Shown piece by piece: positions 17,539 through 60,500 of a stretch of DNA of 64,000 nt. The translations under genes were made by a program, and so were the position numbers. The notes under the pieces are model-generated. The model was not told the DNA's origin. It saw only the letters and a program-made list of their open reading frames with translations, and made no database searches. The DNA is from Prevotella sp. (GTDB lineage Bacteria > Bacteroidota > Bacteroidia > Bacteroidales > Bacteroidaceae). Every line of letters begins with the position of its first letter. Position 1 is the stretch's first letter. The stretch is from the NCBI GenBank assembly GCA_017410365.1, contig JAFQQY010000043.1:1-64000 (forward strand). Direction: 5' to 3'.

Positions 17539-19575
17539 ATGAAAATCAAACATGTATTATCGGCTGTGGCAGTGGCATCACTGACTATAGCATGCGGACC
17601 ATCGGCACCAAAGTCTGGTATCGACCTCGCAAATCTTAATCAGGAGGTTAGTCCTGCTGAAGACTTCTATGAATTTGCTTGCGGAGGATGGATGAAAAAC
17701 CACCCGCTGCCAGCTGCTTACTCTCGCTACGGAAGTTTCGACAAACTGGGAGAAGACAACAACAAGCGTATCAACGACATCCTGAACGAACTGAAAAGCA
17801 AGGAGTACGAAGAGGGTACAACAGAGAAGAAACTCAGCGAACTCTACAAACTCTCTATCGACTCTGTACGCAGAAATGAAGAGGGCGTGAAGCCGGTGAT
17901 GCCTATCATCGAAAAGATGGAGGCTGCAAAGAGTGTAGACGAACTGTTTGCCATCGAGCTTGAACTTGCTCCTTACGGCAATAGCGAGTTTTTCGGTGCT
18001 TATATTGGAGCTGACGACAAGAACTCAACTCAGAACATCCTTAACGTAGTTCAGAGCGGTATCACACTCGGATTGAAGGAGTATTATCTTGATAACGACT
18101 CAGCAACAACAGCCATACGCGAGGCTTACAAGAACCACATCGTAAGAATGTTCCAGATGTTCGGCTTCGACGAAGCAGCATCAACAAAGAAGATGGAGAA
18201 CATCATGAAGCTTGAGACAGAGCTTGCAAAGAACTCTAAGTCGCGTACAGAAATGCGTGACCCAGAAGCAAACTACAACAAGACTACTCTGGAGGAGTTC
18301 AACAAGAAATATCCTAACATCAAGCTTGAGGCAATAGCAAACGCACAGGGCTTGAAGTCTGAGTATATTCAGGAGTTCATCGTCGGTCAGCCATTGTTCA
18401 TGGAGGCAGTAAACAAGTTGCGTGAAACAATGACCGCCGACGAGTATCGCGACTACATGGAGTGGGGACAGATAATGAGCGCTGTAAGCTATCTGAGCGA
18501 CGACGTGGTGGCTGCCAACTTCGATTTCTTCGGCAAGACAATGTCTGGCCGCAAGGAAGACTATCCGTTGTGGAAGCGTGCCACAATGCAGGTTGAGCGC
18601 GTGATGGGCGAGGCACTCGGACAGATATACGTGGCTAAATACTTCCCTGCATCATCAAAGGAGCGCATGGAGCAGTTGGTGAAGAACCTTCAGATTGCTC
18701 TCGGCGAGCGCATCGATGCACAGGAGTGGATGAGTGACAGCACAAAGGTGAACGCTCACCAGAAGCTCGATGCTTTCTACGTGAAGATAGGTTATCCTGA
18801 CAAGTGGACAGACATGACAGCACTGGCCATCGACCCAGAGAAGTCATACTACGAAAACATACGTGAGTGCAACAAGTTCTGGAATGCTCACACAATAGAA
18901 GAGAAGGCAGGCAAGCCAGTAGACCGCGACGAGTGGCACATGACACCACAGACAGTAAACGCATACTACAACCCGACAACCAACGAAATCTGCTTCCCAG
19001 CAGGTATCCTTCAGCCACCATTCTTCGACCCAGAGGCTGACGATGCATTCAACTATGGTGCCATCGGTGTGGTGATAGGTCATGAGATGACTCACGGCTT
19101 CGACGACCAGGGACGCCGCTATGACAAGGACGGTAACATGAAAGACTGGTGGACAGCTGAAGACGGACAGAAGTTCAACGAGCGTGCACAGGTGTGCGTA
19201 GACTTCTTCAACAATATCAAGGTGCTTGACGACCTGAACGCCAACGGACAGTTGACATTGGGCGAGAACCTTGCCGACCACGGAGGTCTTCAGGTGGCTT
19301 ACTACGCACTGAAGAACGCCACCAAGGACAACCCGCTGCCTGAAATAGACGGCTTCACAGCAGAACAGCGCTTCTTCCTGGCATACTCTGGCGTATGGGC
19401 AGGAAACATCACAGAAGAAGAAATGCGCAACCGCACAAAGAGCGACCCTCACTCTCTGGGACGCTGGCGCGTGAACGGTACGCTGCCACATATCGACATG
19501 TGGTATGAAGCGTTCGACGTGAAGGAAGGCGACAAGATGTATATTCCTAAGGAAAAGCGCGTGACATTGTGGTAA
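17539..19575 (+). CDS. pepO: M13 family zinc metallopeptidase, lipoprotein (PepO-like)
   Basis: A 678-residue neprilysin-type endopeptidase. The N-terminus ends in a lipobox (LTIAC, Cys20), so it is anchored by lipid, probably at the periplasmic or outer face. Zinc site: H515-E516-MT-H519 in 'VVIGHEMTHGFDDQGR' and the third ligand E576 in 'GENLADHGG' (with D580). 'NAYYNPTTNEICFPAGILQPP' is the substrate-binding region. The protein ends in the usual W-terminal motif. Likely degrades oligopeptides for nutrition. Preceded by 81 bases of AT-rich sequence with no good promoter, so it may be cotranscribed with the ABC-F gene; followed by a strong terminator. Confidence 0.95.
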   Translation: MKIKHVLSAVAVASLTIACGPSAPKSGIDLANLNQEVSPAEDFYEFACGGWMKNHPLPAAYSRYGSFDKLGEDNNKRINDILNELKSKEYEEGTTEKKLSELYKLSIDSVRRNEEGVKPVMPIIEKMEAAKSVDELFAIELELAPYGNSEFFGAYIGADDKNSTQNILNVVQSGITLGLKEYYLDNDSATTAIREAYKNHIVRMFQMFGFDEAASTKKMENIMKLETELAKNSKSRTEMRDPEANYNKTTLEEFNKKYPNIKLEAIANAQGLKSEYIQEFIVGQPLFMEAVNKLRETMTADEYRDYMEWGQIMSAVSYLSDDVVAANFDFFGKTMSGRKEDYPLWKRATMQVERVMGEALGQIYVAKYFPASSKERMEQLVKNLQIALGERIDAQEWMSDSTKVNAHQKLDAFYVKIGYPDKWTDMTALAIDPEKSYYENIRECNKFWNAHTIEEKAGKPVDRDEWHMTPQTVNAYYNPTTNEICFPAGILQPPFFDPEADDAFNYGAIGVVIGHEMTHGFDDQGRRYDKDGNMKDWWTAEDGQKFNERAQVCVDFFNNIKVLDDLNANGQLTLGENLADHGGLQVAYYALKNATKDNPLPEIDGFTAEQRFFLAYSGVWAGNITEEEMRNRTKSDPHSLGRWRVNGTLPHIDMWYEAFDVKEGDKMYIPKEKRVTLW

Positions 19576-19632: not shown

Positions 19633-19677
19633 GACGGAAGCTGAAAGTAAGAAACACTTCGGCTTCCGTCTTTTTTT
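19633..19677 (+). terminator. Intrinsic terminator after pepO
   Basis: GACGGAAGC (19633-19641) pairs with GCTTCCGTC (19662-19670), followed by seven T. It separates pepO from the signalling operon. Confidence 0.85.
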
Positions 19678-19732: not shown

Positions 19733-19740
19733 TATCTTTG
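19733..19740 (+). promoter_or_regulatory. -7 box of the signalling operon
   Basis: TATCTTTG, about 30 bases before the ATG at 19771. It rules out the longer frame that starts inside the box. No clear -33 element; the upstream sequence is a T-rich tract. Confidence 0.65.
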
Positions 19741-19770
19741 CCTTTTGAAATTGTAACTATTTGCGAAGAT

Positions 19771-20637
19771 ATGAACGACGATTACATGTCAGATATAAAT
19801 AATGCAGAAATAACACAGCGTACGCTAAGGCCGCAAGAACCAGCTGCTGAGACGGAAATGCAACAGGAAGTGGTGGAGAATATCCAGCCTGCGACAGATG
19901 TGCTAGAGGCTGTCTGTTGCCCATTTTGCGGCGAGATGATGGATGCCGATGCCGACTATTGCGAGTCGTGCCACAGATATGTTAACGGCAACGTATGTTC
20001 GTATTGCGGAACGGCACTTAGCGGCGAAGAGGCCTACTGCTCGGAGTGTGGCAACCCAAGAGGAGGACTGGTTTGTCCGGCATGCCACACAATGAACGAC
20101 TTTGCCTTCTGCAAGCAATGCGGTACACCGCTCACCGACGAGGCTAAAGCCATGGTGGCTGAGATGATGCAGCATCCCGATTTCATAGAACTGAAGGCAG
20201 CCGTAGAACAGATGAGTAATCTTGAGAATTGTCTTCCATACACCTCAGAGCGCGACATCGTTTGCAAGCAGATGAACGAAAAGCTGCGCGAAAGGGTGCT
20301 GACGCTGTTGGCTAAGGACAGAGGCGAAGAAAACCCTGAAGTGAGGCCGCTGCCAGAGACAAGAATGTCTGAAGAACAGCTTAACGCCAAGAAAGAGCAA
20401 GTCATAGAAAAGGTAATGGAACTGCTGGAAAAGTTGGCGCTGGTAAAGGCAGAATCGCCAGTCAAGGCACGTAACTACTGCATGGCAACCAAGCCCGCCG
20501 GAGTCAGGTTGGCATGGGTGTGCAATTATAAACACGCTATGCATAGCAGTCCTTGCGGATGCGCAAAACCGCATCTCGGTGGAAAATGGGTTATTTTAGG
20601 ACGTGGAACTAAAGGTAATATAAAAGATGACAACTGA
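19771..20637 (+). CDS. Triple zinc ribbon protein, first gene of the signalling operon
   Basis: A 288-residue protein with six CxxC knuckles that form three zinc ribbons: C50/C53 with C64/C67, C76/C79 with C90/C93, C102/C105 with C114/C117. The first 48 residues are acidic and disordered. After the ribbons come two helical segments (residues 125-160 and 195-230) and a C-terminal Cys/His-rich piece (WVCNYKHAMHSSPCGC) that may bind another metal. No enzyme motif. It overlaps the kinase gene by 11 bases, so the two are translationally coupled, which argues for a direct partnership, such as an adaptor or sensor for the kinase. Start at 19771 chosen from the -7 box; ATG 19786 is possible. Confidence 0.85.
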   Translation: MNDDYMSDINNAEITQRTLRPQEPAAETEMQQEVVENIQPATDVLEAVCCPFCGEMMDADADYCESCHRYVNGNVCSYCGTALSGEEAYCSECGNPRGGLVCPACHTMNDFAFCKQCGTPLTDEAKAMVAEMMQHPDFIELKAAVEQMSNLENCLPYTSERDIVCKQMNEKLRERVLTLLAKDRGEENPEVRPLPETRMSEEQLNAKKEQVIEKVMELLEKLALVKAESPVKARNYCMATKPAGVRLAWVCNYKHAMHSSPCGCAKPHLGGKWVILGRGTKGNIKDDN

Positions 20638-23575
20638 TAATGACAATACGTTGAGAGTAGGCATGGGAGGCTATGGCGAACTCAGGACCTTTAGCGACAA
20701 CGACAAGACAGCGCGAACGGTTCCAACTCTCTCGATGCCAGACGCCGACTTTGAAGGCCTAGACGATTTTGTTCTGAAAGGCAAGGCGTATAAGAAGATA
20801 AAATGCCTCAGCGACGAATCGGGCGAAGCGCAGGTCTTTCTTGTAGGCAATGCAGGAAAGGAATATGTGCTGAAACTATATTACCCTAACTTCAGCATCA
20901 ACAAGAAAATGCTGAAGATTGTGGCAAACATGAACTTTGAAATGATTGTCAGGCTCTATGATTTCGGAAAGACATACGTCGACGGCAAGAACAGAGACTA
21001 TGAGCTGATGGAATATCTGAAGGGCGGCACACAGGTCAACTATAGTGTTGGCGGCAATATCAACGTCTTCAGAAGAATAGCTCTGCAAGCTGCTGCTTCG
21101 CTGGCATATTGCCACAACTGCAACATCATTCACAAGGATATAAAGCCAAGCAACTTCTTCTTCAGAGACGAGACGCACACAGAAGTGGTGTTGGGAGATT
21201 TCGGTATATCATCGATAATGGACGGCGACAAAAAGACGCTCAAGACCTCTCAGGCAAGAACACCGCTATATGCAGCTCCGGAAATGTATAACGACGTGAT
21301 AGATGGCGTAGTGGAAATAACACCAGCTGTCGACTTCTATTCACTTGGCATCACGCTGATGACCATCTGGAAGGGCGAAGCGCCAATGGCAACTAACGAG
21401 AGAGCCATGATGAGACGTAAGAGCGAAGGACGCCTGCCCGGTATTGATGAACTGCCTGAAAGGGTGAAGATGATTGTGCAAGGACTGACTTCCGTAAACC
21501 CTGCTTCAAGATGGGGATACGATGAGGTGGAGAGTTGGTTCGAAGGTGGTTCGCCAAAGGTTGACATGTCATCGCCTGTGCTGAGATATAAGAGTTTTGT
21601 AGTTGACCCGGAACGCAACCTCGTGGCCGACAATGTTCATGAACTGATACCGCTATTGCTCGACAATGAACGCGTGGCATGCAACTATCTGTATAGTGGC
21701 CGCATAGCCGAATGGTTGGAGCAGAGCGGAAATGTAAAACTGGCTGTAACGCTGAGGGATATCGTAACTAACAAGTACCCAGTAAACCAAATGGCAGGGT
21801 TATGGTCGGCCGTTTATGCCATGGAGAGTTCTTATCCCTACAAGGATTTGCATGGCAATATGTGCGACAACATACATAGTGTGGCTATATCGATGCTCAG
21901 TTATGCCGACGAGTATAGTGTGGCGTTGCGAAACATCTATGACCCACTCTGGATATATATAGAGAGTCACACAAAGTGCAATATGGAGCGATTGCGTGGC
22001 TATTTCAGTTCGGATAAGGACAAGACAAGCAGAAAGGACATACTGAAGGTTGTCTATGAGATAGATCCGGACATTCCGCTGTTGGCACGCCATCAGTCGT
22101 CAAGCATAAAGGAGATAGTAAGGAGTTTCGGAGGCGATAACCTTACGGAAGACGAGTGGCAGGCACTTACCGACGGCCGACTGCTGGCATGGATGTATAG
22201 TCATGAGACAAGCATGGCTTGCGAATCGTTGCGAATCCTGATTGACGGACAACCGTATAGCAGGCAGTTGGCATATAAGGTACTTTATAACCTTGACCGT
22301 ATGGCTGCCTACGACCTGAAAGATGCCGATACTCCGTTGAAGGTGGGTGAGTTGCTGGCAGAACAGCTAAGGCAGCTGCAGAACGCCACAGACGAAGAAG
22401 TGGCACTGGCAATAGCCGATTTCAGCGACCCAGACGGACGTTTTGCATACTTCGCACAGTTGCATGGATGGACAAAAGAACTGGCAGAGTCGAGAGCATG
22501 CTTCGACATGAAGAGTCCTGAAAACAAGGACAGGCTTGGAGCATATGACATGCGTACGGCTGCCTACCGCTTCTGCAAGATACTAGGCGAGAAACCTGGC
22601 TATCTGTTGTCTGACGGAACCATCGTTACCGAGGACACATATACAGAACCGAAATATATGTCGTTGGTGCGCACGGAATTGCGTTGTGCTTGCTTTGCAC
22701 AATGGATGTCGGTGGCATTTCACGAAGACCCAAACAAGGACTTCTCTGAAACTTACAGTTATGAGCGTAGTCTGGAACAATGGCTTCTGGCATTGGGAAA
22801 TATTGACCCGCAACAGAAGTACTACAAGCGTTTTGAGAATGCTAAGGAGGAGACAAAGCGCAAGTGCGACGAGCTGAGAGACTACTACAACGGTGTCAAG
22901 ACACGCGAAACCCTGTGGCGCTCTGTCTTCTATGCTTTGACAATACTTTGGCTGCTGATGCTGGTTTTCGTTGGCATAAGCAACAAGGAATATGTACTCG
23001 AACATTCGTTCATATCTATAGCCCTGCCATTGGGTGGCGTGTCAGCCCTGCTTATGATGCTTAAGGCATATTTCAGAGGCTACGGCTTCCTTATGTCGTT
23101 GATATGGGGCATAGGCGGTTTCCTCACATCGTACATACCTATATGGCTGTTGAAACTTGTGGATGCAGGCATGCCGTCGTTGTTTGTGCCCGCTGTAGTC
23201 TTGATAACACTCGTATATGCATTCATTTGCCATCGTTCTGATTTCAACGGCGTAGGCAAGGAAGACAAGAAACTGATAGGCGAAGTGCTGGACGGTGATA
23301 TCAACTCACGTCTTTTAGAACCGCTATATTATTCTTTCAAGGCCAAGACCTATAAGTATAAGGGCACAAAGTTTGGCTTGATGGACGATATATATAATCA
23401 GATAAATTCCGTGGCAGGCGAGAGCGTCATTCATTACGCTTTCTGGTGCCTGATGCCATTGCTGTTTGTGCTTGAGATTGTGGTGTTCAGTCCTAAGCTC
23501 ATGGACTTCAAGACTCCCGACCTAGGAGTAAATCCAACGAAGGTAATACAACAGTTAGAGTCTGATATAGAATAA
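20627..23575 (+). CDS. Membrane-attached Ser/Thr protein kinase
   Basis: A 982-residue Hanks-type kinase. Catalytic domain at about residues 55-310: invariant lysine K83 ('YVLKLYYP'), catalytic loop H169-K-D171-IKPSN, D191-FG in 'LGDFGIS', and 'PLYAAPEM'. All key residues are present, so it should be active. The H-K-D instead of H-R-D loop means it may not need activation-loop phosphorylation. Residues 320-760 form a long helical region without a family I can name. Residues about 764-880 and 934-953 hold four to five membrane segments, so the kinase faces the cytoplasm on a C-terminal membrane anchor. This is opposite to the PknB layout, which carries an extracellular C-terminal sensor. It overlaps the zinc ribbon gene and is 32 bases from the AAA gene. 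Confidence 0.92.
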   Translation: MTTDNDNTLRVGMGGYGELRTFSDNDKTARTVPTLSMPDADFEGLDDFVLKGKAYKKIKCLSDESGEAQVFLVGNAGKEYVLKLYYPNFSINKKMLKIVANMNFEMIVRLYDFGKTYVDGKNRDYELMEYLKGGTQVNYSVGGNINVFRRIALQAAASLAYCHNCNIIHKDIKPSNFFFRDETHTEVVLGDFGISSIMDGDKKTLKTSQARTPLYAAPEMYNDVIDGVVEITPAVDFYSLGITLMTIWKGEAPMATNERAMMRRKSEGRLPGIDELPERVKMIVQGLTSVNPASRWGYDEVESWFEGGSPKVDMSSPVLRYKSFVVDPERNLVADNVHELIPLLLDNERVACNYLYSGRIAEWLEQSGNVKLAVTLRDIVTNKYPVNQMAGLWSAVYAMESSYPYKDLHGNMCDNIHSVAISMLSYADEYSVALRNIYDPLWIYIESHTKCNMERLRGYFSSDKDKTSRKDILKVVYEIDPDIPLLARHQSSSIKEIVRSFGGDNLTEDEWQALTDGRLLAWMYSHETSMACESLRILIDGQPYSRQLAYKVLYNLDRMAAYDLKDADTPLKVGELLAEQLRQLQNATDEEVALAIADFSDPDGRFAYFAQLHGWTKELAESRACFDMKSPENKDRLGAYDMRTAAYRFCKILGEKPGYLLSDGTIVTEDTYTEPKYMSLVRTELRCACFAQWMSVAFHEDPNKDFSETYSYERSLEQWLLALGNIDPQQKYYKRFENAKEETKRKCDELRDYYNGVKTRETLWRSVFYALTILWLLMLVFVGISNKEYVLEHSFISIALPLGGVSALLMMLKAYFRGYGFLMSLIWGIGGFLTSYIPIWLLKLVDAGMPSLFVPAVVLITLVYAFICHRSDFNGVGKEDKKLIGEVLDGDINSRLLEPLYYSFKAKTYKYKGTKFGLMDDIYNQINSVAGESVIHYAFWCLMPLLFVLEIVVFSPKLMDFKTPDLGVNPTKVIQQLESDIE

Positions 23576-23607
23576 GATACAAAAGTAAGAGCAACATAAG
23601 AGATAGA

Positions 23608-26600
23608 ATGAAATGTGAGCATTGTCATAAAGAGAACCGCTCGATAGCCAGATTCTGCAAATGGTGTGGCGCGGCATTGTCTGCCCACAATCTTCTTGAG
23701 CGCCTGGTAGGACTTGATGAGATTAAGCAGCAGATGAAGACCGTAGTCGATACATATACCTTCCTTCATTCAAGGAAGGATATCAGCAACGTGCGCATCA
23801 GCGTAAACGCTATCATCATAGGAGAAACCGGTACAGGCAAGACAATGCTTGCAGAAATCATACGCGATTATTTCTATCAGCACAAAATAATAAACAAACC
23901 GAAACTGACAATGGTTGATGCCGTTGACTATCAGAGGTTTGTTGACAAATGGGATGACAATATAAAGAAAGCACGTGGCGGTATATTGTTCTTCGACAAT
24001 GTGCAGAAGTTGCTTCCCGACAGATATTCCAATCAGGTGAATCCGCTCGACAAGTTGTTTGTGGAAATGGACCATTGGAATGACGACCCTATTGTAATAA
24101 TCTCAGGACTACCAAAGGGATTGGACGATTTCCTTGAGAACAACCCGGCAATAGCCAATCGTTTCAAGTACAAGTTCCACCTGCCTACACCTGGTTGTCA
24201 GGATTTGTGCATGATATGCAAGCAGATGCTGCAGACAAAATATTCTTTGGTTTCTTATACTCCAGAGGCAGATGCAAAGCTGAACAGGTATTTCAAATAT
24301 CTGTTGAAGACAAAAGACGAGACCTTCGGGTATGCTCATGAGGCGGCAAAGGTGGCAGAAGATATTTTCACTTCTTTCATTAGCAGAGGAGTAAATGCCA
24401 CATGCATAGAAGAGTCAGACATACGTGGCTATGTGCCACAGGAAAGAAGTCTCGACGAGATACTTGCCGATATGGATTCCTACATCGGTATGGATGAGGT
24501 GAAGCACGCCGTAAAGGAAATTGCTTATGCCGTAAAGAACAATACCGAGCGTGTAGAACGTGGTCTTGGCGAGAAAGGCAAGATGGGCGTTCATATAGTA
24601 CTTACCGGTAATCCAGGAACAGGTAAGACCACCATTGCCCGTAAGCTTGGCGAGATATTGTCAGCCATAGGTTATTTGGACAGCGGTCATGTTGTAGAGG
24701 TGGACAGAGCCCAGATGGTAAGTCCATATCAGGGAGAAACACCGAAACTCGTAGACCGCCTGTGCGACAAGGCCATGGGAGGAATTTTGTTTGTTGACGA
24801 GGCATATACTTTGGTACCGCTTAGCAGTTCGGGTGAGCGTGACAACCAAGGAGCACAAGCCTTGGAGAAACTGATGAAGAGAATGGAAGACGACCGAGGC
24901 GAGTTTGTTGTTGTGGCAGCAGGCTATCGCACGGAAATGGACAATCTGTTCAGAATAAATCAGGGATTCAAGAGCCGTTTCAACTATTTCCTTAATATAG
25001 ACGACTACACTCCGATGGAGCTTTATTGCATATTGGAGTCGTTTGCGCGCGACAAGAAGTACGTCTTCTCCGATTCTGCTTTCGAGCTGATAAGGAAGAT
25101 GATAAAGGAGATGTACGACAACAGAGGCAAGGACTTTGCCAATGGCAGAACGATGCGCCAGTTGTTTGATACCATGTGCAAGAAACAGGCTGAGCGCCTG
25201 GAACAAGGCAACCTGCATCTATTGAGCGACGAGCAACTTATGACGATTGAGGCTGAAGATGTGCCTTATGAAGCGCCTAAGCAAGCCAATGTTTCTGACT
25301 GCTTGAATAAGTTGAACGGTCTTGTAGGTCTTCAATCCGTCAAGAACGAAATATCTAATCTGGCATCGTTCATCAATCTCCAGATTATGCGTGGAGACAA
25401 CAATACTTTCCAAGGCAAGCACTATGTCTTTACTGGTAATCCTGGAACGGGCAAAACAACCGTGGCTAGGATTATGGCAGAGGTGTTCGCTACACTTGGT
25501 GTATTGACAAGAGGTCATCTTGTTGAGGCGGACAGAAGCAATCTTGTGGCAGGCTATAGTGGTCAGACGGCCATTAAGACCAACCAACTGATTGACTCGG
25601 CCATGGGAGGCGTACTGTTTATCGATGAAGCATATACTTTGAAGTCGAGTGATGGCGACGCCTTTGGTTCCGAAGCCATTGACACGTTGCTCAAGCGACT
25701 GGAAGACGACCGTGGCAAGTTTATTTGCATCGTGGCAGGATATACCGACCAGATGCATGACTTCATAGATTCCAACCCTGGATTGAAGAGCCGCTTTACC
25801 CAAACTATACATTTCGATGACTATACGCCAGACGAACTGACAGACATCTTCCTGGCTATGGCCTACAGAAAGCACTTCGTAATAGAAGACGATACAAGCG
25901 CAGCCGTACATAGACTCTTTGAACAACTCTACTTGCGTAAAGACAAGAATTTCGGCAATGCCCGTGAGGCAAGAAAAGTGTTCGACGAGACGGTAGAAAA
26001 ACAAAGCCACAGGTTGATAAGAGAAATGTCTAATCCTCAGTTCGTACAGGCAGATATGTATAAGCTGACGGTAGAAGACCTCCCGATGTCGCAAGGCGAG
26101 AAGAAGCGTCCATTAGACGAGATACTCAACGAGTTCGACAAGCTTGTAGGCATGCGCTCTGTCAAGAATATGGTAAGACGACTGGCCGTTCAGAGCATGT
26201 TCATGCGTCAGCGCTCAGAACAAGGTGTTGGCAATGTACAGCAGATGGTCATGAACTTTATTCTTACAGGTAACCCTGGCACAGGCAAGACCACCATAGC
26301 ACGAAAGATGGGCGAACTGCTTTATAGCATGGACATCTTGTCGTCGAGCAAGGTTGTCGAGGTGAGCCGGGCATCGCTTGTGGGAAAGTATATGGGCGAA
26401 ACCCCTAAGATAGTCAACAAGATGTGCGACAAGGCTATGGGCGGTATCTTGTTCATTGATGAGGCCTACATGCTGAACACCGACAACGACAACTACGGCA
26501 AAGAAGCCATAGACACCTTGGTAAAGCGAATGGAAGACGACCGTGGCAAGTTTGTTGTCATAGCTGCCGGTTATAAGGACGAGATGAGCAACTTCATGAT

Positions 26601-26919
26601 GGCAAATGCAGGTCTTGCCAGTCGCTTCAGTCACAAGATGCACATAGAAGATTATAATGAAAACGAACTCCTGTCCATCTATAAGGGCATGGCAAGTGAA
26701 GAACAATTTATGCTGTCGCCAGAGGCAGAGTTCAAGTTGCTTGACTTGATATGCAGAATGGTGGTAAGCAAGACAAAATATTTTGGCAATGCCCGCGAAA
26801 TGCGCAATTTGCTTGATGTTACGATACAGAATCTTTCTCAGCGAGTATCAATGTTGTCTCCTTCTGAACTGACCCCAGAGAGCTATCAGATGATATTGCC
26901 TGAAGATATTAAGGATTAA
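23608..26919 (+). CDS. Four tandem CbbX/SpoVK-type AAA+ domains with N-terminal zinc ribbon
   Basis: A 1103-residue ATPase. A zinc ribbon (C3, C6, C17, C20) is followed by four AAA+ modules. AAA1: Walker A GETGTGKT at 72-79, but Walker B reads 'GGILFFDNVQ', with N in place of the catalytic E, and its arginine finger is 'NRF'; it is probably a non-hydrolysing module. AAA2 (Walker A from 334, 'GGILFVDEAYTL', 'KSRF'), AAA3 (from 610, 'GGVLFIDEAYTL', 'KSRF') and AAA4 (from 888, 'GGILFIDEAYML', 'ASRF') keep all catalytic residues and repeat every 276-278 residues. This class (CbxX/CfqX, EccA, SpoVK) remodels protein complexes as a hexamer; here four modules are fused. No membrane segment. It lies between the kinase and the FHA gene. 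Confidence 0.92.
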   Translation: MKCEHCHKENRSIARFCKWCGAALSAHNLLERLVGLDEIKQQMKTVVDTYTFLHSRKDISNVRISVNAIIIGETGTGKTMLAEIIRDYFYQHKIINKPKLTMVDAVDYQRFVDKWDDNIKKARGGILFFDNVQKLLPDRYSNQVNPLDKLFVEMDHWNDDPIVIISGLPKGLDDFLENNPAIANRFKYKFHLPTPGCQDLCMICKQMLQTKYSLVSYTPEADAKLNRYFKYLLKTKDETFGYAHEAAKVAEDIFTSFISRGVNATCIEESDIRGYVPQERSLDEILADMDSYIGMDEVKHAVKEIAYAVKNNTERVERGLGEKGKMGVHIVLTGNPGTGKTTIARKLGEILSAIGYLDSGHVVEVDRAQMVSPYQGETPKLVDRLCDKAMGGILFVDEAYTLVPLSSSGERDNQGAQALEKLMKRMEDDRGEFVVVAAGYRTEMDNLFRINQGFKSRFNYFLNIDDYTPMELYCILESFARDKKYVFSDSAFELIRKMIKEMYDNRGKDFANGRTMRQLFDTMCKKQAERLEQGNLHLLSDEQLMTIEAEDVPYEAPKQANVSDCLNKLNGLVGLQSVKNEISNLASFINLQIMRGDNNTFQGKHYVFTGNPGTGKTTVARIMAEVFATLGVLTRGHLVEADRSNLVAGYSGQTAIKTNQLIDSAMGGVLFIDEAYTLKSSDGDAFGSEAIDTLLKRLEDDRGKFICIVAGYTDQMHDFIDSNPGLKSRFTQTIHFDDYTPDELTDIFLAMAYRKHFVIEDDTSAAVHRLFEQLYLRKDKNFGNAREARKVFDETVEKQSHRLIREMSNPQFVQADMYKLTVEDLPMSQGEKKRPLDEILNEFDKLVGMRSVKNMVRRLAVQSMFMRQRSEQGVGNVQQMVMNFILTGNPGTGKTTIARKMGELLYSMDILSSSKVVEVSRASLVGKYMGETPKIVNKMCDKAMGGILFIDEAYMLNTDNDNYGKEAIDTLVKRMEDDRGKFVVIAAGYKDEMSNFMMANAGLASRFSHKMHIEDYNENELLSIYKGMASEEQFMLSPEAEFKLLDLICRMVVSKTKYFGNAREMRNLLDVTIQNLSQRVSMLSPSELTPESYQMILPEDIKD

Positions 26920-26937
26920 TAGAGAGTGTGAGTGCTT

Positions 26938-27510
26938 ATGATTATTTGCCCGATATGTAGAGAAGAAATAGACGACGATTCGCGCTATTGCGACCAGTGC
27001 GGACAAGCCTTAGTCTATTGTAGCAAATGCCGCCGTGTAGGTGTCGGACGACGTTGCACCTATTGTGGAGGTCTGATGATTTCCGCCAGCGAATTAAGCA
27101 AGCTGGGCGAAAGCACCTCGTTGGCCGACAATTCTTCAAAGGGCTTCTTCTCGGGTGTCGAGACCACAGGCAACAACCTTTCTGTCTCTCTATCGAACAT
27201 ATCGAACAACATTCCTAAACTGACACTTACAAACTCAAGCCTCGACATAAGCATCTCGGGCATCAACGGCGCTGTGGTTGGTAGACGTCAAGGTCCGTAC
27301 CGCCAAATCTTCGAGCAGCATAAGTATGTGTCGGGAGTGCACGCACAATTGGTTTACAAACCACAGATAGGGTGGTGCATCATAGACAAGCACTCTTCAA
27401 ATGGCACCAAACTCAATCAGCGCATGCTTCGCCCTGACGACCTAATGTCGATAAAAAACGGCGACATTGTAACTATTGCCAATATTAACTTAGAAGTTAG
27501 CATTGTATAG
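26938..27510 (+). CDS. Zinc ribbon-FHA domain protein
   Basis: A 190-residue protein. Residues 1-45 contain four CxxC knuckles (two zinc ribbons: CPIC, CDQC, CSKC, CTYC). A Ser/Asn-rich linker (about 50-105) leads to a C-terminal forkhead-associated domain: G115-R116, 'SGVHAQLVY' and 'DKHSSNGTKLN' are the phosphothreonine-binding loops. It would read phosphothreonines made by the kinase. Start taken at ATG 26938; an in-frame GTG two codons earlier is possible. It is 18 bases after the AAA gene and one base before the PP2C start. Confidence 0.92.
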   Translation: MIICPICREEIDDDSRYCDQCGQALVYCSKCRRVGVGRRCTYCGGLMISASELSKLGESTSLADNSSKGFFSGVETTGNNLSVSLSNISNNIPKLTLTNSSLDISISGINGAVVGRRQGPYRQIFEQHKYVSGVHAQLVYKPQIGWCIIDKHSSNGTKLNQRMLRPDDLMSIKNGDIVTIANINLEVSIV

Positions 27511-27511
27511 A

Positions 27512-28258
27512 ATGAGTAAACTGAATATATCAGCATCCTGCCAATTGGGATGCATACGACAAAACAATGAAGACATGATTCTGGTAGGCGAGCGACTTAT
27601 CAGAAACGAGATATACCATACAACCATCGACGATAACAAACAGACACGGTTTGCCATTGCCTTGGCAGATGGTATGGGTGGTCATAATGCAGGCGAGGTG
27701 GCAAGCGAGACGACATTGTCGAACCTGAGCTTTTTTCTTAGCGATCTGCCCGACAACCTTACTCCAGAAGGCCTTATCGAGATAATATTGAATTGGTTGG
27801 AATCAATCAACAAGATTATAGAATCGAAAGGATTGGCCGACCCTTCGCTTTCAAGCATGGGCACAACGCTTGTTGCCATAATATACTATGGTGGCAGATA
27901 CCTCTGGATAAACTGTGGCGACAGCAGACTCTATAGATACTATAATGGCGAGTTGCGCCAACTCACTGTCGACCATTCCCTTAACACCCTGATAGGCGAG
28001 AAAAAGCATTCAAATGTGCTCACCAATTGCATAGGAGCGGGTTGCAAAACCTCGTATCTAGACATTACCGACTTTACAGACAGCGTGAAAGAAGGCGGCC
28101 GCTTCTTCTTGTGTTCCGACGGATTGAACGATATGCTTACTGACGAAGAGATGAAAGCCGTGCTCGATAAAGGCTGTGATGCCGATGCGCTGTGCCGTGC
28201 TGCTATCTGTGAAGGAGGCTTCGACAATGTGTCTGTATGTATGATTGATATAGAATAG
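27512..28258 (+). CDS. PP2C-type Ser/Thr protein phosphatase
   Basis: A 248-residue metal-dependent phosphatase, complete and without added domains. Motifs in order: 'RQNNED', 'LADGMGGHNAGEVAS' (metal ligand D53), 'SSMGTTLVA', 'NCGDSRLYRY', 'FLCSDGLNDML' and 'FDNVSVCMIDIE'. All metal-binding aspartates are present. It would reverse the kinase. Start at ATG 27512, one base after the FHA stop; a TTG at 27503 is in frame but would overlap. Metal-dependent and cytoplasmic. Confidence 0.93.
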   Translation: MSKLNISASCQLGCIRQNNEDMILVGERLIRNEIYHTTIDDNKQTRFAIALADGMGGHNAGEVASETTLSNLSFFLSDLPDNLTPEGLIEIILNWLESINKIIESKGLADPSLSSMGTTLVAIIYYGGRYLWINCGDSRLYRYYNGELRQLTVDHSLNTLIGEKKHSNVLTNCIGAGCKTSYLDITDFTDSVKEGGRFFLCSDGLNDMLTDEEMKAVLDKGCDADALCRAAICEGGFDNVSVCMIDIE

Positions 28259-28287: not shown

Positions 28288-29205
28288 ATGCCGTTAAGAC
28301 TACCGGATAAGTTGCCAGCAATAGAATTGCTGAAGAAAGAGAATATATTTGTGATGGACGCCACACGTGCCACATCGCAGGATATTCGTCCTCTTAGAAT
28401 AGTGATATTGAACTTGATGCCCCTGAAGATAACAACAGAAACCGACCTTGTGCGCTTGTTGTCTAATACACCATTGCAGATGGACATCAGTTTCATGAAA
28501 CTGCAAAGCCATACGCCAAAGAACACTCCTATAGAACACATGCTCATGTTTTATAAGGACTTCGAGGAAATGAAAGACGAAAAGTTTGATGGCATGATAA
28601 TAACCGGAGCACCGGTAGAAAACTATGAATATGAAGATGTTACGTATTGGGAAGAGATGAAGCGCATTTTCGCATGGGCAAAGACCCACGTAACGTCTAC
28701 GCTATATATTTGTTGGGCAGCACAGGCAGGACTCTACTATCATTATGGTGTGCCTAAGTATCCGTTGCCAAAGAAGAAGTTTGGTGTTTTCTCGCAAAAG
28801 CCATTGCTTCCGCAACTGCCTATTTTTCGTGGCTTCGACGATATGTTTACCATGCCTCATAGTAGACATACCGAACTAAGACACGAGGATATACTTTCTA
28901 ATCCAGAACTTACACTTATTGCCGATTCCGATGAGGCAGGCGTCAGCATAGTAATGGCGCGTGGTGGCCGTGAGTTTTTCATTACTGGCCATTTGGAATA
29001 CGCACCTAATACTTTGGACAAGGAGTACAAGCGCGATAAGGATGTGCGCGACGACGTGGAAATGCCTGTCAACTACTATCGCGACGACAATCCAGACAAC
29101 GAACCGGTTGTCACATGGCGTGCACATGCCAATCTTCTGTATAGCAACTGGATAAACTACTATGTTTATCAGGAAACACCATTTGATATAAGCAAGATAG
29201 AGTGA
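28288..29205 (+). CDS. metA: Homoserine O-acyltransferase MetA (predicted acetyl type)
   Basis: A 305-residue enzyme of methionine synthesis that acylates L-homoserine. Catalytic Cys142 is in 'YICWAAQAG'; 'MPHSRHTE' and the later 'TGHLEYAP' supply the conserved His and Glu. The residue that in this family separates acetyl-CoA (Glu) from succinyl-CoA (Gly) users is Glu111 here ('GAPVENYEYEDV'), so acetyl-CoA is the predicted donor, contrary to the usual 'succinyltransferase' label. It follows the PP2C gene by 29 bases with no clear promoter and no SAM riboswitch, and its stop overlaps the next start. Its presence behind a signalling cluster may be accidental. Confidence 0.94.
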   Translation: MPLRLPDKLPAIELLKKENIFVMDATRATSQDIRPLRIVILNLMPLKITTETDLVRLLSNTPLQMDISFMKLQSHTPKNTPIEHMLMFYKDFEEMKDEKFDGMIITGAPVENYEYEDVTYWEEMKRIFAWAKTHVTSTLYICWAAQAGLYYHYGVPKYPLPKKKFGVFSQKPLLPQLPIFRGFDDMFTMPHSRHTELRHEDILSNPELTLIADSDEAGVSIVMARGGREFFITGHLEYAPNTLDKEYKRDKDVRDDVEMPVNYYRDDNPDNEPVVTWRAHANLLYSNWINYYVYQETPFDISKIE

Positions 29206-51774: not shown

Positions 51775-53493
51775 ATGAAAAAGAATTTTCTATTCGCAAT
51801 GGCTATGGCAGCGGTATTCGCTGGATGTAGCAGTGATGATGATCCTGTAGCTAATGCTGGTGGTGAAGTTAGTGGTGAAAATTTTATCGCCCTTTCTATT
51901 AACCTTCCGACACAGAACTCTACTAGAGCTTTTGATGAAAACACCCAACTGGCTGATGGTCTTGAGACAGAGTATTCAGTTAAGGAAGCTTGTCTTGTAA
52001 TTTTTGATGGAACAGAAGCAGGTTCAAAAGTTGTAGAAACACATGATTTGTCAACTTCATTCTCTAACAACAATGATGCCCCAAATCATATAACACAAAC
52101 ATCAACTAAAGTTGTTAAGAAAGTAGCTGCAAGTGTACAGCCAAACTATGGAATGCTTGTTGTTTTGAATAATAATGATGTTTTAGATTATACATTAATG
52201 GTGGGCCAAACACTTACTGATGTATTAGCTTTGACATCTGATGAATCTAAAATATTGACAACAATGACCGATAAGGGGCTTTTCATGACTAATGCACCTT
52301 TAGCAACAGCTATTGGTGGTGCATCATGGAGTGGTGACATCAGTCTTTTGGTGCCAATTACAAATGTTTATCCTACAGAAACAGCTGCTCAGGCAGGAAC
52401 AGCTGACCAAGTATATGTAGAAAGAGCTGTAGTTAAGGTGACAATGCAAGAAGGTACAGCAGGAAATCTTACAACAGGTAAAATTGATGCTTCAGCTGTA
52501 TCGTATGAAATTTCTGGATGGAATTTAAGTAATACAAATTCAACATCATATGTTGTACGTAATACTTTTAAATCTGATATGGATACTTGGGCTAAATATA
52601 CTTCAAATGGTTTGACTCCAGAAAGTTACCGCTTTATTGGTACAACTCAAGTTACAGGTTCAGCAAAATATCGTACATATTTTGCAAAAGATCCCAATTA
52701 TGATACTGATGCAACTTTAAATGATGTTGAAACTTTTGTAGATAAATTCGGTGATAACAATCCTTTGTATTGTCTTGAAAATACATTTGATGTTGCTCGC
52801 ATGACAAACAAAAATACTACACATGTTATTATCAAAGCGACTTTGGGTGATGGAACTAAGGATTTGTATGTTGTAAATGATGAAAAGAGCATTATTTATG
52901 ATGATATAACAAAGGTAGACGCAATTGTATATAATGCCATTGGTTCTTCAATTTTGAGTACAAATCTCACTGGTACAGTTGATGTCAATGATTTTGACAT
53001 TACATATGCAGCATCTTCAGATAAAACCCATAATAGTGAGGTAAGTAGCATTACTTTAAAGTCTACTTCTACAGGTGAATATTCAGATGGAGGTACTGCA
53101 GTAAATACAGCTTTGGCATCTGCTATTGCAGCTATTAATGGTAAAGTAAAGATTTCTAAATATACAGGTGGCGCAAGTTATTATGCAGCTCGTATTAAGC
53201 ACTTTGGTGATGGCGAAACACCTTGGAATACCACAGAAACAGATAAACCAGCTTCAGGCAACATATATCCAAGTGCTAATGCTGATGCTAATTATTTAGG
53301 CCGTTATGGTGTATTGCGTAACAACTGGTATGACCTCAAGGTAACAGGTATTGCTATGATAGGCGAACCTACAATTGAGTCTGTTACAGGCGAGGAAGAT
53401 GATACTGACACAGATGACGAATTGGATTCATACATCGCACTCCAAATCAACATCCTCTCTTGGGCTAAGCGTTCACAGAACGTAGAACTCTAA
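51775..53493 (+). CDS. Mfa1-family major fimbrial subunit (fimbrillin lipoprotein)
   Basis: A 572-residue fimbrillin, the likely shaft subunit. The lipobox gives Cys18 ('AVFAGC'). It is exported as a lipoprotein, then probably cut by a protease at R51 ('NSTR|AF') to free the acceptor groove for strand exchange with the next subunit. The protein is mostly beta strands with many Thr and Asp. The C-terminus 'INILSWAKRSQNVEL' is the donor-strand end. Base composition is clearly more AT-rich than the genes on both sides, typical of variable surface proteins. It is followed by a strong hairpin and a 22-bp repeat array before the anchor gene. Confidence 0.9.
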   Translation: MKKNFLFAMAMAAVFAGCSSDDDPVANAGGEVSGENFIALSINLPTQNSTRAFDENTQLADGLETEYSVKEACLVIFDGTEAGSKVVETHDLSTSFSNNNDAPNHITQTSTKVVKKVAASVQPNYGMLVVLNNNDVLDYTLMVGQTLTDVLALTSDESKILTTMTDKGLFMTNAPLATAIGGASWSGDISLLVPITNVYPTETAAQAGTADQVYVERAVVKVTMQEGTAGNLTTGKIDASAVSYEISGWNLSNTNSTSYVVRNTFKSDMDTWAKYTSNGLTPESYRFIGTTQVTGSAKYRTYFAKDPNYDTDATLNDVETFVDKFGDNNPLYCLENTFDVARMTNKNTTHVIIKATLGDGTKDLYVVNDEKSIIYDDITKVDAIVYNAIGSSILSTNLTGTVDVNDFDITYAASSDKTHNSEVSSITLKSTSTGEYSDGGTAVNTALASAIAAINGKVKISKYTGGASYYAARIKHFGDGETPWNTTETDKPASGNIYPSANADANYLGRYGVLRNNWYDLKVTGIAMIGEPTIESVTGEEDDTDTDDELDSYIALQINILSWAKRSQNVEL

Positions 53494-54827: not shown

Positions 54828-54869
54828 AGACTGGTTTTGAAAACTATAACGCTTGACATAAAGAGGAAA

Positions 54870-56195
54870 ATGCTTAGAATGGTGCTGCTCGTGGCAGTGC
54901 CGTTGCTTGCAGTCTCATGCAGTATGATGCACGAGGACTATGAGCCTATGCCCGATATGTTAGGCGACAGCTACGTTTCCGTTACCGTTTCTGCAGGCAG
55001 TCGTGAGGCGACAACGCGCGGACCACAGGGTGGGGAAGACGGCGACGGACGTGAAGACGCTACGGAAAATGAATATAAGATTAGTAACCTTACCTTGTTG
55101 TTGTATAGAGATGCAGCGGGTATAAACTCAACTGCAAATCCAACAATAGAACATGCCATCTATTTCAGTTCTTTTAACGTCGTAACAGAAAATGGAAATG
55201 ATGGATATGACAACAAGACATATTCAACATTCACCAAGAAGTTGGACGACGGAATAGAACGTGCAGTATATCACGTGATTGCTATTGCCAATGCCGGAGA
55301 TAAGACATCGTTGAAGGGACAGGCCCTCTCTTCTGTTCGCAACCACATTATCACAGAACAATGGAAGTCGGCAGCAAGCATAAACGACTATACGGACTTC
55401 GTAATGACATCTGAAGAAGATGCAACTATAGATATGACAACAGGTGAAGGTTCTTTCGATAATCCTTTTGAAGCAACCATAGATGTAGAACGCCTTGCCG
55501 CCCGAATAGATTTTGATATTGCAGGAGGAACTTATCATTCTGAGAATGGTGGTTATTACGAATATGCTGTTGAAGGTAGTACAACCGATAAGTACCGTCT
55601 TAAGAGTATAAAGGTAAAGAACATGCTTACCTCCGGCAGTTATCTTATAAAGCGCGTGGCAACTGCTGTTGACGGCACAGGTCTTTCATATTTAGGAGCA
55701 GAAACAGTTGAAAGTAATGTAGCAACAAACTACGTGTTCGACCCATGGACAAATTTAAAGACATCGACTATCCCAACAGATTTGTCATATCAAGAATCTA
55801 ATCTTATAAATGTAACAAATCAAACTAAAACAGTTGGTGAAGAAACCTTCTTTACTTTGGCATACACTCAAGAGAACACGTTGCCAAGTGTAGAAAATAA
55901 TGAAATAAAAGCAACATACGCCACAGCATTGGAGTTTACTGGCGAATATATAAGCAACGGAACATCGAAGGGAGAAAGCAAAGTGACATATTATATCCGT
56001 CATTGCGACCCTAATGACAATGCGGATGAGACCAGCCCGATGAAATACGGAATCGTAAGAAACAATATATACAGAGTGAAGGTGAGCAAGGTAAATAAGC
56101 AAGACCCTGCAATACCTGACGGAAAGGCACTATTAGACCTGAATATAAAGGTGAAGAAGTGGCACGTGATAAAACACTCTGAGATTGTAATGTAA
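54870..56195 (+). CDS. Accessory fimbrillin lipoprotein
   Basis: A 441-residue lipoprotein (lipobox LAVSC, Cys17) of the fimbrillin superfamily. Cleavage site candidate R50 ('EATTR|GP'), after a first strand 'YVSVTVSAG'. Beta-rich body with a 'GIVRNNIYRVKVSKV' segment near the end, common in FimA/Mfa-type proteins, and a C-terminal strand 'LNIKVKKWHVIKHSEIVM'. Start taken at ATG 54870; a TTG at 54837 is in frame. It begins 42 bases after the anchor gene and is likely a minor subunit near the tip, but this is inference. Confidence 0.85.
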   Translation: MLRMVLLVAVPLLAVSCSMMHEDYEPMPDMLGDSYVSVTVSAGSREATTRGPQGGEDGDGREDATENEYKISNLTLLLYRDAAGINSTANPTIEHAIYFSSFNVVTENGNDGYDNKTYSTFTKKLDDGIERAVYHVIAIANAGDKTSLKGQALSSVRNHIITEQWKSAASINDYTDFVMTSEEDATIDMTTGEGSFDNPFEATIDVERLAARIDFDIAGGTYHSENGGYYEYAVEGSTTDKYRLKSIKVKNMLTSGSYLIKRVATAVDGTGLSYLGAETVESNVATNYVFDPWTNLKTSTIPTDLSYQESNLINVTNQTKTVGEETFFTLAYTQENTLPSVENNEIKATYATALEFTGEYISNGTSKGESKVTYYIRHCDPNDNADETSPMKYGIVRNNIYRVKVSKVNKQDPAIPDGKALLDLNIKVKKWHVIKHSEIVM

Positions 56196-57594: not shown

Positions 57595-60500
57595 ATGAAA
57601 TCATCATTATATAATCATATCCGCATCCTCCTCATCTCCCTCTTCACCCTTGTTGCCAATGGTGCGGCTTGGGGACAGACGTTTGGGGACCCCAATAGTG
57701 TGAGTAGCAGTTATACTTTTAAACGATATTTAAAAACATCCAATGCTACAACAACGCCAATAATATCTGATACTGAAGCAAATGAGCTATATTCTATTAT
57801 TGTTAGTAAGTTGGCAGAACAAGCATCACGTACAGAGGCTGAAGAAGAAACAATCCTACAGAATCAAGCTTATGTGCGTTGGTTTATTTCTAAAGACGGT
57901 GTTCTTCAGGATATGAATCCTTGGGAGTTTAGAACAATAATAAGACCTAATGAACAATGGCCTTTTACAAAACATTATATTTATGGTTTCTATTGGTTCC
58001 CACATAAGGATAGATGGAATGATGCGGTCGATGTTTTATTGGAACTTCTAAGAATAAAAAGTATAACAAATTATTCAAGTCTAAATCTAAGTAATTATAA
58101 CATAGAACTTGTTGTTTCTGATGAGGCTGATTTGTCTGCTGATGTTTATAATGGATATGGAGGTAATTGGCAAGGAACAGAACCAACTTTAAAATTACGC
58201 TTTATATGGGAGTTTAATGAAACTGGTGAAGCACCCGTCGACCCATTCGAGAATGTTCCTAATGAATTAACTCCAACACAAGGAACAAAAGATATTTACG
58301 AATATACAGCCCCAACAAATATTACAATTAATCTTCAGGATTATAATAATTCAATAACGACTCCTTCATACATTCGTTGGTGCTTTGCAGATAATAATGG
58401 AAATGTTGTAGATAATCCAGGATTTGATTTGTCTAATGGAGATATTGCATATAACACCCAAGGGCAAAGCATTTATTTCGGTGGCACAACAACAAATGCA
58501 AATGAAAATCTATTAAATATAACTGTTACACCGCAAGCAGGAAAAAGCTTTGCCGATTTGGCTTCGTATAAACTTGTGGCATATCTGTCAAACGAGCTAG
58601 GAACAATAGAAAATGAAGCTTTAACCAAAGAACCTCTTATATCATCTAAATATGAAATAAGTTTTAATTTTGTTCCTTTTGCATCTGAACTGCCGGAAGC
58701 AAGCAAGCGCCATACCTCAACGATAATCGTAAACGATGAGAACGCAACTTCTGTTTCATTGCCGTTGTCAGATCATTGGGAAACAATAAAGGCCGATTTA
58801 GGTTCAGAAACAGTAAATTATCTCCGCTACTATTTGCTTGATGCAAGTGATAATGTTGTTACAACAGGTTCGTTGTCAAGTGATAAAGGCATTAATTTTG
58901 AAAATAACAACATAATAGGAAATTATTGGCTCAAACCGTCTGAAACAGCATTTGATAAAGATATGCTTGATTTTACTGCAACAGTAACCTCAGGTAAAAT
59001 ATCAGATTATAAGTTTGTTATCTTATTGTCAAGCAAAGATGCAATCTATGATGGAATGTCTTTAGCACAAGAACCAATATTAGAGAGTATGTTTACTTAT
59101 AGTATTGGTGTTGAGCCAGCTAAAGAAGTAACAATATTAAAACTGGTAGAAAATGATGCTAAATCAGTTACATTGAATTTATATGATGATATGATAACTG
59201 ATATAAAATCGAAATACACTGCAGAGGAAATGCTGAATTTCTATCTGAAATGGTATCTAAGAGATAAAGAAACAAAAGAGCCATATTTACCAGTTAACTG
59301 TCCATTTACTTATACTACAGCTTATTCTTTAGAGTATCTGCATAATTATGGCTTGACTTGGTGCTCTAATGATCAGCCATCCTATGGATTAAGTTGGGTA
59401 TCTGGGAGTAATTCTGGATATACAGATGACAACTTAAAGAAAGTTTTCAACAATATATCATATTCATCAACTAATCTACCAGAGGGCAAGAACATAAATG
59501 ATTATGAGATAGTCTGTGTAATGACAAATGATTTGTCAGGATTAGTAGAACAAGGAGGATATAGGCTAAAAGAACCTGCTTTCCAACACAAATATGTATA
59601 TCAGCTGATTACAAATGATGAGGCTGAAAATGCATTTACAGAGGGAAGTGTTGCAAACGTAAAGACAATAAAGAAAGAACTGTTAGTCCCAGAAGGAGAA
59701 ACAAAGGATTTGTCACTTACAGATATAGAATTTGAGGAGGTGAAAAAGGCTTTGGGAATAGAGACTGTTTCAAACATGTATGTACGCTGGTATGTTGAAA
59801 ATGCAGAAACTGGTGAACGTATTGAATTTGAATTATTAGATTCTCCATTCACTAGTTATGATGATTCTTATGAGGATTATCGTACAGAAGGATTGATATG
59901 GTATAGCGGTAGTAATTTTGCTAATACAACCTTATCACCCTCAACCCATTTAAGACTTACATATAAGTCATCAGATAATACATGGAAAAATCGTAATGTT
60001 GTTTGTCTATTGACTGATAATCAGCCAGAAACACTTGGACAATATATAACAAAAGAACCTAATTTCGAGGTTAAGTATATATTTAGTTTTGTAACTAAAG
60101 AAGAACTTATTCAGAGGGGATTACAAACCACAACATTCTCATCGCTTATATCAAGACCAACAGAAGAAGCAACAATTGTTATAGATACTGATAATCTTGA
60201 TGATTTGACAAAAGAGATAACAACAGATTCTTTCAAAGAACTATTCCCTTCATTTTATACTAATTATTATACATTATTTAATAAAGGAACAGGTGATAAT
60301 ACTGATTTCTATCTTAGGTGGTTTCTAGTAGATGGTAATAATATAATTGTAACACAAATTCCTAATGATGTATTGACTGACGGAGAATCAAATGGTTATC
60401 AAAATACAAAGTCCAGTGGACTAGTATATAAGCAAACTACAAATTATGAAGGTTTGAAACTCGGCATTACATATAAAAGACCAACGGAAAAATTATGGGA

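Follow-up and report, generated by a model that had tools for sequence, protein, structure and literature searches.

A five-gene kinase, AAA, FHA, and PP2C unit of Prevotella, present or absent as a whole and predicted to be a phosphorylation-switched chaperone module

Gene content of the module

The stretch of DNA analyzed here (the window) comprises the first 64,000 nucleotides of contig JAFQQY010000043.1 from a Prevotella sp. genome (GCA_017410365.1), and our subject is the run of five plus-strand genes at 19733-28258, which encode, in order, a zinc-ribbon protein, a membrane Ser/Thr kinase, a protein with a zinc ribbon and four AAA modules, a ribbon-FHA protein, and a PP2C phosphatase. The initial annotation of this DNA had proposed a five-gene signalling cluster, and all five genes were confirmed at that place and on that strand. 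Pfam detected DZR zinc ribbons in the first protein, Pkinase in the second, four AAA stretches and three AAA_lid_6 stretches in the third, FHA together with DZR in the fourth, and PP2C_2 in the fifth; zinc ribbons are present in three of the five proteins. Counted from the listed starts, the zinc-ribbon and kinase genes overlap (-11 bp), 32 bp separate the kinase and AAA genes, 12 bp separate the AAA and FHA genes, and the FHA and PP2C genes overlap again (-8 bp). The features of the module, all on the plus strand, are as follows.

19771 to 20637 (+): zinc-ribbon protein (listed open reading frame from TTG 19738), with a tail carrying TQRTLRP, zinc ribbons, and a conserved C-terminal domain
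20515 to 20589 (+): W-C-H-C end of the zinc-ribbon protein, W-C-N-x5-H-x2-P-x2-C-x5-GG-x-W
20627 to 23575 (+): transmembrane Ser/Thr kinase, 982 aa
20627 to 20764 (+): N-terminal threonine-motif tail of the kinase (NTLR, KTAR)
20765 to 21535 (+): protein kinase domain; K83, D171, K173, N176, and D191-F-G invariant in 46 sequences
22910 to 23506 (+): four transmembrane segments predicted by hydropathy only, kinase residues 762-960
23608 to 26919 (+): AAA protein, 1103 aa, with four modules of the SpoVK/CbbX/EccA type behind a zinc ribbon
23614 to 23667 (+): N-terminal zinc ribbon CxxC-x3-NR-x2-A-x2-CxxC, in 33/33 sequences
23695 to 24477 (+): AAA module 1; Walker A intact, Walker B with D-N in place of the glutamate
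24469 to 25263 (+): AAA module 2; D-E Walker B, pore loop YQG
25297 to 26088 (+): AAA module 3; D-E Walker B, pore loop YSG
26125 to 26910 (+): AAA module 4; D-E Walker B, pore loop YMG, matches solved CbbX best
26932 to 27510 (+): zinc-ribbon FHA protein; GR, SxxH, and NG residues kept
27503 to 28258 (+): PP2C phosphatase, Stp1-like; DGMGG, GDSR, SDG, and GGxDN motifs kept

The kinase, FHA, PP2C, and zinc-ribbon components named in the initial annotation all held, as did the four AAA modules, except that the first of them is without its Walker-B glutamate. That degenerate module, the threonine-repeat tail of the kinase, and the presence or absence of the whole unit at one site are features absent from that annotation.

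The five genes are present or absent as one unit

When the AAA protein was used to scan a species-genome collection, the best 80 loci of the 164 stretches with a relative made up a Prevotella-group set, in which 20 locus titles mention a ruminant host or the rumen. The order zinc ribbon-kinase-AAA-FHA-PP2C on one strand was complete in 77 of these 80 loci, with each gap at most 62 bp when counted from the first possible start of each frame; two of the three exceptions end at a contig edge, and the third has a split kinase frame. Apparent losses of the PP2C gene (L041, L082, L104, L117), the FHA gene (L072), and the zinc-ribbon gene (L097) were rejected as artefacts of antisense or longer frame choice after a recount on all frames. 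A further 30 loci with the ribbon-AAA N terminus represent other genera, families, orders, and another class, four of them being same-genus, and all five genes stood in order in 24, with an inserted gene in L140 and L162 and a split kinase in L120 and L162. Four of the six incomplete ones stop at contig ends (L129, L137, L145, L030), and two are without a recognizable PP2C gene (L132, L139). Six same-genus loci (L024 to L029) enter only as shorter versions, and some at least of these are contigs already in the 80-locus set. The initial annotation had made its idea of a separate system depend on co-occurrence, and in these loci the five genes were not found apart.

The site itself could be compared with relatives that are without the module. 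In the window, the M13 peptidase gene upstream and the metA gene downstream lie 8.7 kb apart. Among 12 same-genus genomes without an AAA match, metA was found in 11, and the M13 gene lay 115 to 408 bp from it in 8 of these 11. In wider stretches read for 8 of the 11, the ABC-F and U32 flank genes were also in place in six (L175 to L179 and L182, all with M13), and in the remaining two (L180, L181) M13 was not adjacent to metA. Because the flanks adjoin each other in most of these module-free relatives, the 8.5-kb unit has been gained or lost whole at one site, and the five genes are present or absent as one unit between M13 and metA. Across the 80 Prevotella-group loci, a frame-picking script that misses some genes saw ABC-F in 73, M13 in 68, metA in 70, and U32 in 76.

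The distribution is patchy. A full-length AAA match was found in 6 of 23 other same-genus genomes (several incomplete) and a match at E 1e-100 in 24 of 301 family genomes, of which 20 were read, one belongs to the window itself, and three (G112, G232, G114) were left out; ribbon-type matches occurred in 4 of 247 order, 6 of 197 other-class, and 8 of 392 phylum genomes. The same-genus, family, and ribbon-type frequencies rest on different thresholds, and above the genus level the window's genome is included where drawn. The closest named relatives of the window AAA protein are all Prevotella or Prevotellaceae.

Pairwise distance matrices of the five proteins over 29 loci, with the AAA protein represented by its N-terminal 320 residues, gave ten correlations of 0.77 to 0.93, none of which was reached in 2000 permutations, and each single-protein tree shares 17 to 25 of 26 splits with the joined tree (branch support values not considered). 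These correlations speak of co-inheritance, not of contact. In the joined midpoint-rooted tree, the other-class loci group with the Prevotella type and not with the same-family loci L120 to L127, which suggests either transfer of the whole unit or two old unit lineages.

Additional genes accompany some divergent operons. A DUF1963 gene adjoins the module, or stands one gene away, in L121 (9933-10583), L126 (17414-18046), L127 (2152-2784), and L160 (14931-15575), and its product is possibly an optional sixth part. SUKH/SMI1 genes lie inside the operon or overlap its end in two other-class loci (L140, 3289-4083; L143, 10445-10966). The gene inserted between the AAA and FHA genes of L162 (6637-7260) encodes repeats like GWFTESYTGYRIDKDTGEIKKV and had no Pfam match.

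The kinase has a threonine-repeat tail and predicted C-terminal membrane segments

The features of a Hanks-type Ser/Thr kinase (VAIK lysine, catalytic aspartate, asparagine, and DFG) were invariant in 46/46 sequences. By hydropathy, 29 of the 30 kinases examined have three to five hydrophobic segments toward the C terminus, and the one left, that of L120, has a split frame; this supports the inner-membrane location that the initial annotation had assigned to the system. In L162, the kinase is a 549-aa frame followed by a separate 418-aa frame with hydrophobic stretches. A conserved middle region of about 450 aa had no Pfam match in the window kinase; over all 46 kinases, and kinase-type families aside, Pfam returned only PG_binding_1 (2/46) and SH3-type domains (two models, 1/46 each), a bacterial SH3 match falling in one kinase beyond the two with PG_binding_1. 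PG_binding_1 is located past the last hydrophobic segment in the divergent kinases of L125 (4904-7990) and L126 (12056-15544), where it would face the side opposite the kinase domain, provided that the segment count is odd or one segment was missed. Several other divergent kinases have about 90 to 320 additional C-terminal residues at that place, with no Pfam match.

The N-terminal tail of the kinase is of low complexity and rich in threonine-centred repeats, such as DDKTIRP (L140), GATIRPNNNGGGG (L120), ADKTLKPDV (L160), SGTQRP (L161), and EVEKTATAPRNPAMP (L126). A T-phi-R motif (T[IVLMFYA]R), picked after the tails had been inspected, occurred 252 times in 102 tails, compared with 14.4 in shuffles (standard deviation [sd] 3.8, maximum 30 of 2000). 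In 15 tails from kinases less than 50% identical, the count was 30 versus 1.7 (maximum 7), with at least one motif in ten tails and none in five. A motif-free test on the same 15 tails, which counted 4-mers of the form xTxx repeated within a tail, gave 36 versus 0.6 (maximum 6 of 1000). At least two T-phi-R motifs in the first 75 residues were found in 75 of 78 kinases and in 3 of the 1033 remaining proteins from these loci, one of the three being a kinase fragment; the kinases of L115, L116, L122, and L162, whose tails could not be delimited, were left out of the tail count. We predict from these repeats that the tail is a docking array for the FHA protein.

The AAA protein combines a zinc ribbon, a degenerate module, and working modules

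The N-terminal ribbon of the AAA protein was also present in 17/17 sequences of a separate first-module alignment, in which the first AAA module was without the Walker-B glutamate in 16. Of the four modules of the window protein, three show the D-E Walker B and three the GY sensor-1 pattern expected of a core of this clade, and module 1 falls short of it. By pattern, the number of D-E modules per protein was three in 23 proteins, two in six, four in three, and five in one, with three to six AAA modules in total; the divergent proteins of L121, L124 to L127, and L160 have one module with the GY pattern. CbbX and EccA1 were the nearest solved sequences. The whole protein scored 772.4, 690.7, and 637.8 bits against the NCBIfam SpoVK, EccA, and CbbX equivalogs, all over cut-off (466.65 for EccA), each score being a sum over four AAA stretches; since it passes all three cut-offs at once, we assign it to none of them. 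Compared with six same-genus relatives, the AAA protein is 72 to 76% identical, versus 51 to 61% for the kinase (aligned part), FHA, and PP2C proteins.

Ribbon-less AAA homologues in L146 to L159 (869 to 1346 aa) were considered as module members and rejected; searches with five profiles at E 1e-5 found no kinase, FHA, or PP2C neighbors. Because they have neither the ribbon nor these neighbors, we treat them as a separate family outside our counts. The N-terminal part of the L146 protein looks TPR-like by eye.

FHA, PP2C, and zinc-ribbon proteins keep their binding and catalytic residues

The GR, S, H, and NG residues of the FHA domain (30 sequences) and the PP2C site (28 sequences) are conserved at 90% or more. 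The window FHA protein has the GR, SxxH, and NG residues that define a phosphothreonine reader (excerpt of PMC1262709).

The C-terminal end of the zinc-ribbon protein was invariant at W, C, H, P, C, G, G, and W in 40/40 aligned sequences. This end had no Pfam match in the window protein, and among the 40 proteins Pfam gave one weak RanBP-type zinc-finger match (E 5e-4), whose position was not placed; the W-C-H-C end is perhaps a new metal site. Ribbons counted by eye number three in the window protein and four in most relatives. The window protein (19918-20133) is without one N-terminal ribbon common to most aligned relatives, and the same ribbon is missing from several divergent proteins, such as those of L120, L122, and L139. 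A [DE]xTxR motif, related to that of the kinase tail, was found in 60 of 78 tails of Prevotella zinc-ribbon proteins.

Comparison with known systems

The type VI threonine phosphorylation pathway (PpkA-Fha-PppA) likewise has a membrane kinase, an FHA reader, a PP2C eraser, and an AAA motor, and in the module, too, the kinase, FHA, and PP2C genes stand side by side. The motor of the type VI pathway, ClpV, belongs to a different AAA family from that of the module. The Fha protein of Agrobacterium tumefaciens binds TssL at phosphothreonine 14 (excerpt of PMC3953482), and the docking that we propose for the kinase tail is N-terminal in the same way. Unlike the type VI pathway, the module has a SpoVK/CbbX-like motor, zinc ribbons, and threonine repeats on the kinase itself, and its FHA protein reached 22.6 bits against the TagH model (cut-off 120.25). 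In ten genomes, seven of which carry the ribbon-AAA gene, VipB gave no match (0/10, one Pfam model, which a divergent Bacteroidota sheath could escape), with the Escherichia coli control matched; TerD and WXG100 likewise gave no match (0/10 each), with their control genomes matched. Membership in type VI, Ter, or type VII systems was rejected on these grounds, and the absence of type VI and TerY companions remarked in the initial annotation was borne out in these genomes. Nor is the cluster tied there to type VI or type VII genes, a constant association with which would, by that annotation, have spoken against a separate system.

With the TerY-P triad, and with the kinase-PP2C-vWA sets of GTPase-centred conflict systems (excerpt of PMC7159879), the module has in common the adjacency of kinase, PP2C, and zinc ribbon, and TerB genes lie beside two of its divergent members. 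The module differs from both in having an FHA reader and a SpoVK-type motor, no TerD match, and no vWA match by Pfam among its five proteins. Kinase, phosphatase, and FHA genes are also clustered in Mycobacterium tuberculosis (excerpt of PMC1262709); in contrast to such actinobacterial clusters, which share the grouping of these genes, the module has no PASTA match by Pfam, and the FhaB model gave 24.4 bits versus a cut-off of 125.

The motor is closest to the SpoVK/CbbX/EccA clade, with which it shares the spore_V_K, EccA, and CbbX model matches, the alignment to solved CbbX and EccA1, and the GY and pore-loop patterns, but from which it departs in its three to six tandem modules, N-terminal ribbon, degenerate module 1, and linkage to kinase, FHA, and PP2C genes. 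Members of this clade have been described as dedicated chaperones without peptidase partners and with a narrow target, SpoVK acting on MurG and EccA1 having a proposed role on mycolate enzymes (excerpt of PMC10659427).

The defence systems MADS, PD-T4-6, TRIP13, and IetA were rejected as identities, their PADLOC matches being at domain level only. So was an origin from mobile elements: of 149 plasmid records, the 20 listed match at 23 to 29% identity from residue 17 or later, and 10/10 phage records match at 25 to 28% from residue 24 or later, the ribbon being uncovered in both. A single peptide pattern run on viral contigs gave no confirmed relative. By the features tested, the module is no part of the type VI, Ter, type VII, or MADS systems. 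The five-gene set is undescribed in the literature searched, with the proviso that Figure 3A of PMC10659427, whose legend mentions operons and "ZnBd", may draw it.

A predicted phosphorylation-switched chaperone module and its alternatives

The five co-inherited genes keep their catalytic or binding residues, and on balance we lean toward an AAA chaperone module at the inner membrane that is self-contained, is switched by phosphorylation, and would remodel a dedicated target. The phospho-controlled remodelling machine of the initial annotation is retained in this form, with phosphorylation, binding, and motor action all predicted from sequence. The membrane kinase, which may sense the envelope from its outer side, would phosphorylate the repeated threonines of its N-terminal tail and, in Prevotella, also the similar motif of the zinc-ribbon protein; the FHA protein would dock on these phosphothreonines. 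By way of the zinc ribbons, common to the three soluble nonphosphatase proteins, it could then gather the AAA motor at the kinase. This motor is probably a SpoVK/CbbX-type ring with a single regulatory module and two to five working ones, and it would pull on or remodel the target near the membrane until PP2C stripped the phosphates and the assembly was released. We weakly rank an envelope-building enzyme or complex first as the target, because of the clade examples (SpoVK-MurG, EccA1-mycolate) and the peptidoglycan-binding ends of two kinases.

Several observations weigh against this model. No target gene is constantly linked to the module in the loci examined, and the Prevotella flanks are housekeeping genes. 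Correlated trees can arise from shared descent alone, and our comparison was made among module proteins, with no unlinked control gene. Only two divergent kinases have the peptidoglycan-binding domain; the window kinase has just 22 residues after its last membrane segment, and Prevotella kinases likewise have little. Tail motifs vary by lineage (KTATAPR in L126, DDKTMVY in L136), and five of the 15 representative tails have no T-phi-R, so a single fixed FHA specificity is not implied. Finally, L132 and L139 have no recognizable PP2C beside the FHA gene, with the other four genes present, and the first AAA module of L030 keeps D-E (1/17). Divergent operons also adjoin genes of families that conflict systems contain as well, namely, TerB (L126, L127), DUF1963 (L121, L126, L127, L160), SUKH (L140, L143), and DUF4062 (L125).

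These neighbors, together with the patchy presence in the genus, argue for a conflict or stress module serving in defence or in resistance to competitor toxins, in which the kinase senses damage and a phospho-assembled AAA protein disarms a toxin or repairs a complex; SUKH proteins have been described as immunity proteins (excerpt of PMC3482391), and PADLOC defence models for kinase and AAA proteins do score, including mad6 (8.1e-32) and mad8 (1.4e-14) of MADS. We consider it unlikely, since the Prevotella module occupies one fixed site amid housekeeping genes, the PADLOC matches are limited to the kinase or AAA domain (MADS6 gave 66.6 bits versus a cut-off of 460), and the plasmid (the 20 listed of 149) and phage (10/10) records leave the AAA N-terminal ribbon uncovered. 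Less probable again is a pure reset role for the AAA protein, which would act on the signalling proteins themselves and strip or recycle the assembly of FHA protein and kinase, the output being a phospho-signal to unlinked targets. The absence of a linked target gene agrees with it, the ribbons of three proteins might allow direct binding of the AAA protein to the other two, and another reset would be needed in L132 and L139, which have no recognizable PP2C. Against it, no other part of the module is as well conserved as the AAA protein, a pattern in better agreement with a conserved target outside the module than with co-varying partners, and its module number ranges from three to six.

That the module is left over from the type VI pathway or from a TerY or type VII accessory set, or is a free-standing copy of one of these, we regard as highly improbable. 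It shares the logic of kinase, FHA, PP2C, and AAA, the FHA protein has a weak FHA-TagH score, and the AAA protein exceeds the EccA cut-off; it exceeds those of SpoVK and CbbX as well, because four stretches sum. The lack of VipB, TerD, and WXG100 matches in the ten genomes, the lack of a vWA match among the five proteins, and the different family of ClpV all speak against such an origin.

Beyond the chaperone module favored above, one may ask whether it represents a new class of machine, that is, a kinase-anchored, envelope-sensing phosphothreonine scaffold that recruits a multimodule AAA motor to its own target, spread through two or more classes of the phylum with its five genes intact, containing two or more new domains (the kinase middle part and the W-C-H-C end), and standing outside known secretion, stress, and defence systems. 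This stronger proposal is tentative, and we hold it somewhat short of an even chance. To our knowledge, few outputs of Ser/Thr phospho-signalling in Bacteroidota are known. Because writer, reader, eraser, and powered effector lie in one removable operon, cause and effect are directly testable here, and presence or absence at one site provides natural strain pairs for comparison. If the model is true, multivalent phospho-docking would have a clear bacterial example in the repeat tail.

Promoter, start codons, and flanking genes

The features around the module, all on the plus strand, are listed below.

17539 to 19575 (+): upstream flank, M13 peptidase, adjoining metA in 8/11 module-free relatives with metA found
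19633 to 19677 (+): terminator-like hairpin with T7 (-21.9 kcal/mol, z -5.2), located after the M13 peptidase gene and ahead of the module
19733 to 19740 (+): promoter-type box TATCTTTG, matching TAnnTTTG
28288 to 29205 (+): downstream flank, metA, homoserine acyltransferase

TAnnTTTG is the -7 promoter consensus of Bacteroidota, and of the 76 Prevotella-group loci tested, 75 had it in the stretch ahead of the zinc-ribbon gene, compared with 16% of mononucleotide shuffles. This recurrent box and the upstream hairpin support, but do not prove, the single promoter claimed in the initial annotation; a simple sigma-70 and terminator scan showed no notable excess over shuffles (17 versus 14.3 and 9 versus 7.0), and the hairpin is absent from its output. 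The listed TTG start of the zinc-ribbon gene (19738) falls within the box, which makes ATG 19771 or a later codon the probable true start. For the FHA gene, the probable start is ATG 26938 (conserved MIICP), and for the PP2C gene it is ATG 27512, whose Met is kept in at least 70% of 77 sequences. Elsewhere in the window, an open frame of at least 2135 aa (57595-63999), with no Pfam match, runs off the window end; it comes after genes with Fimbrillin_C matches (51775-53493 and 54837-56195).

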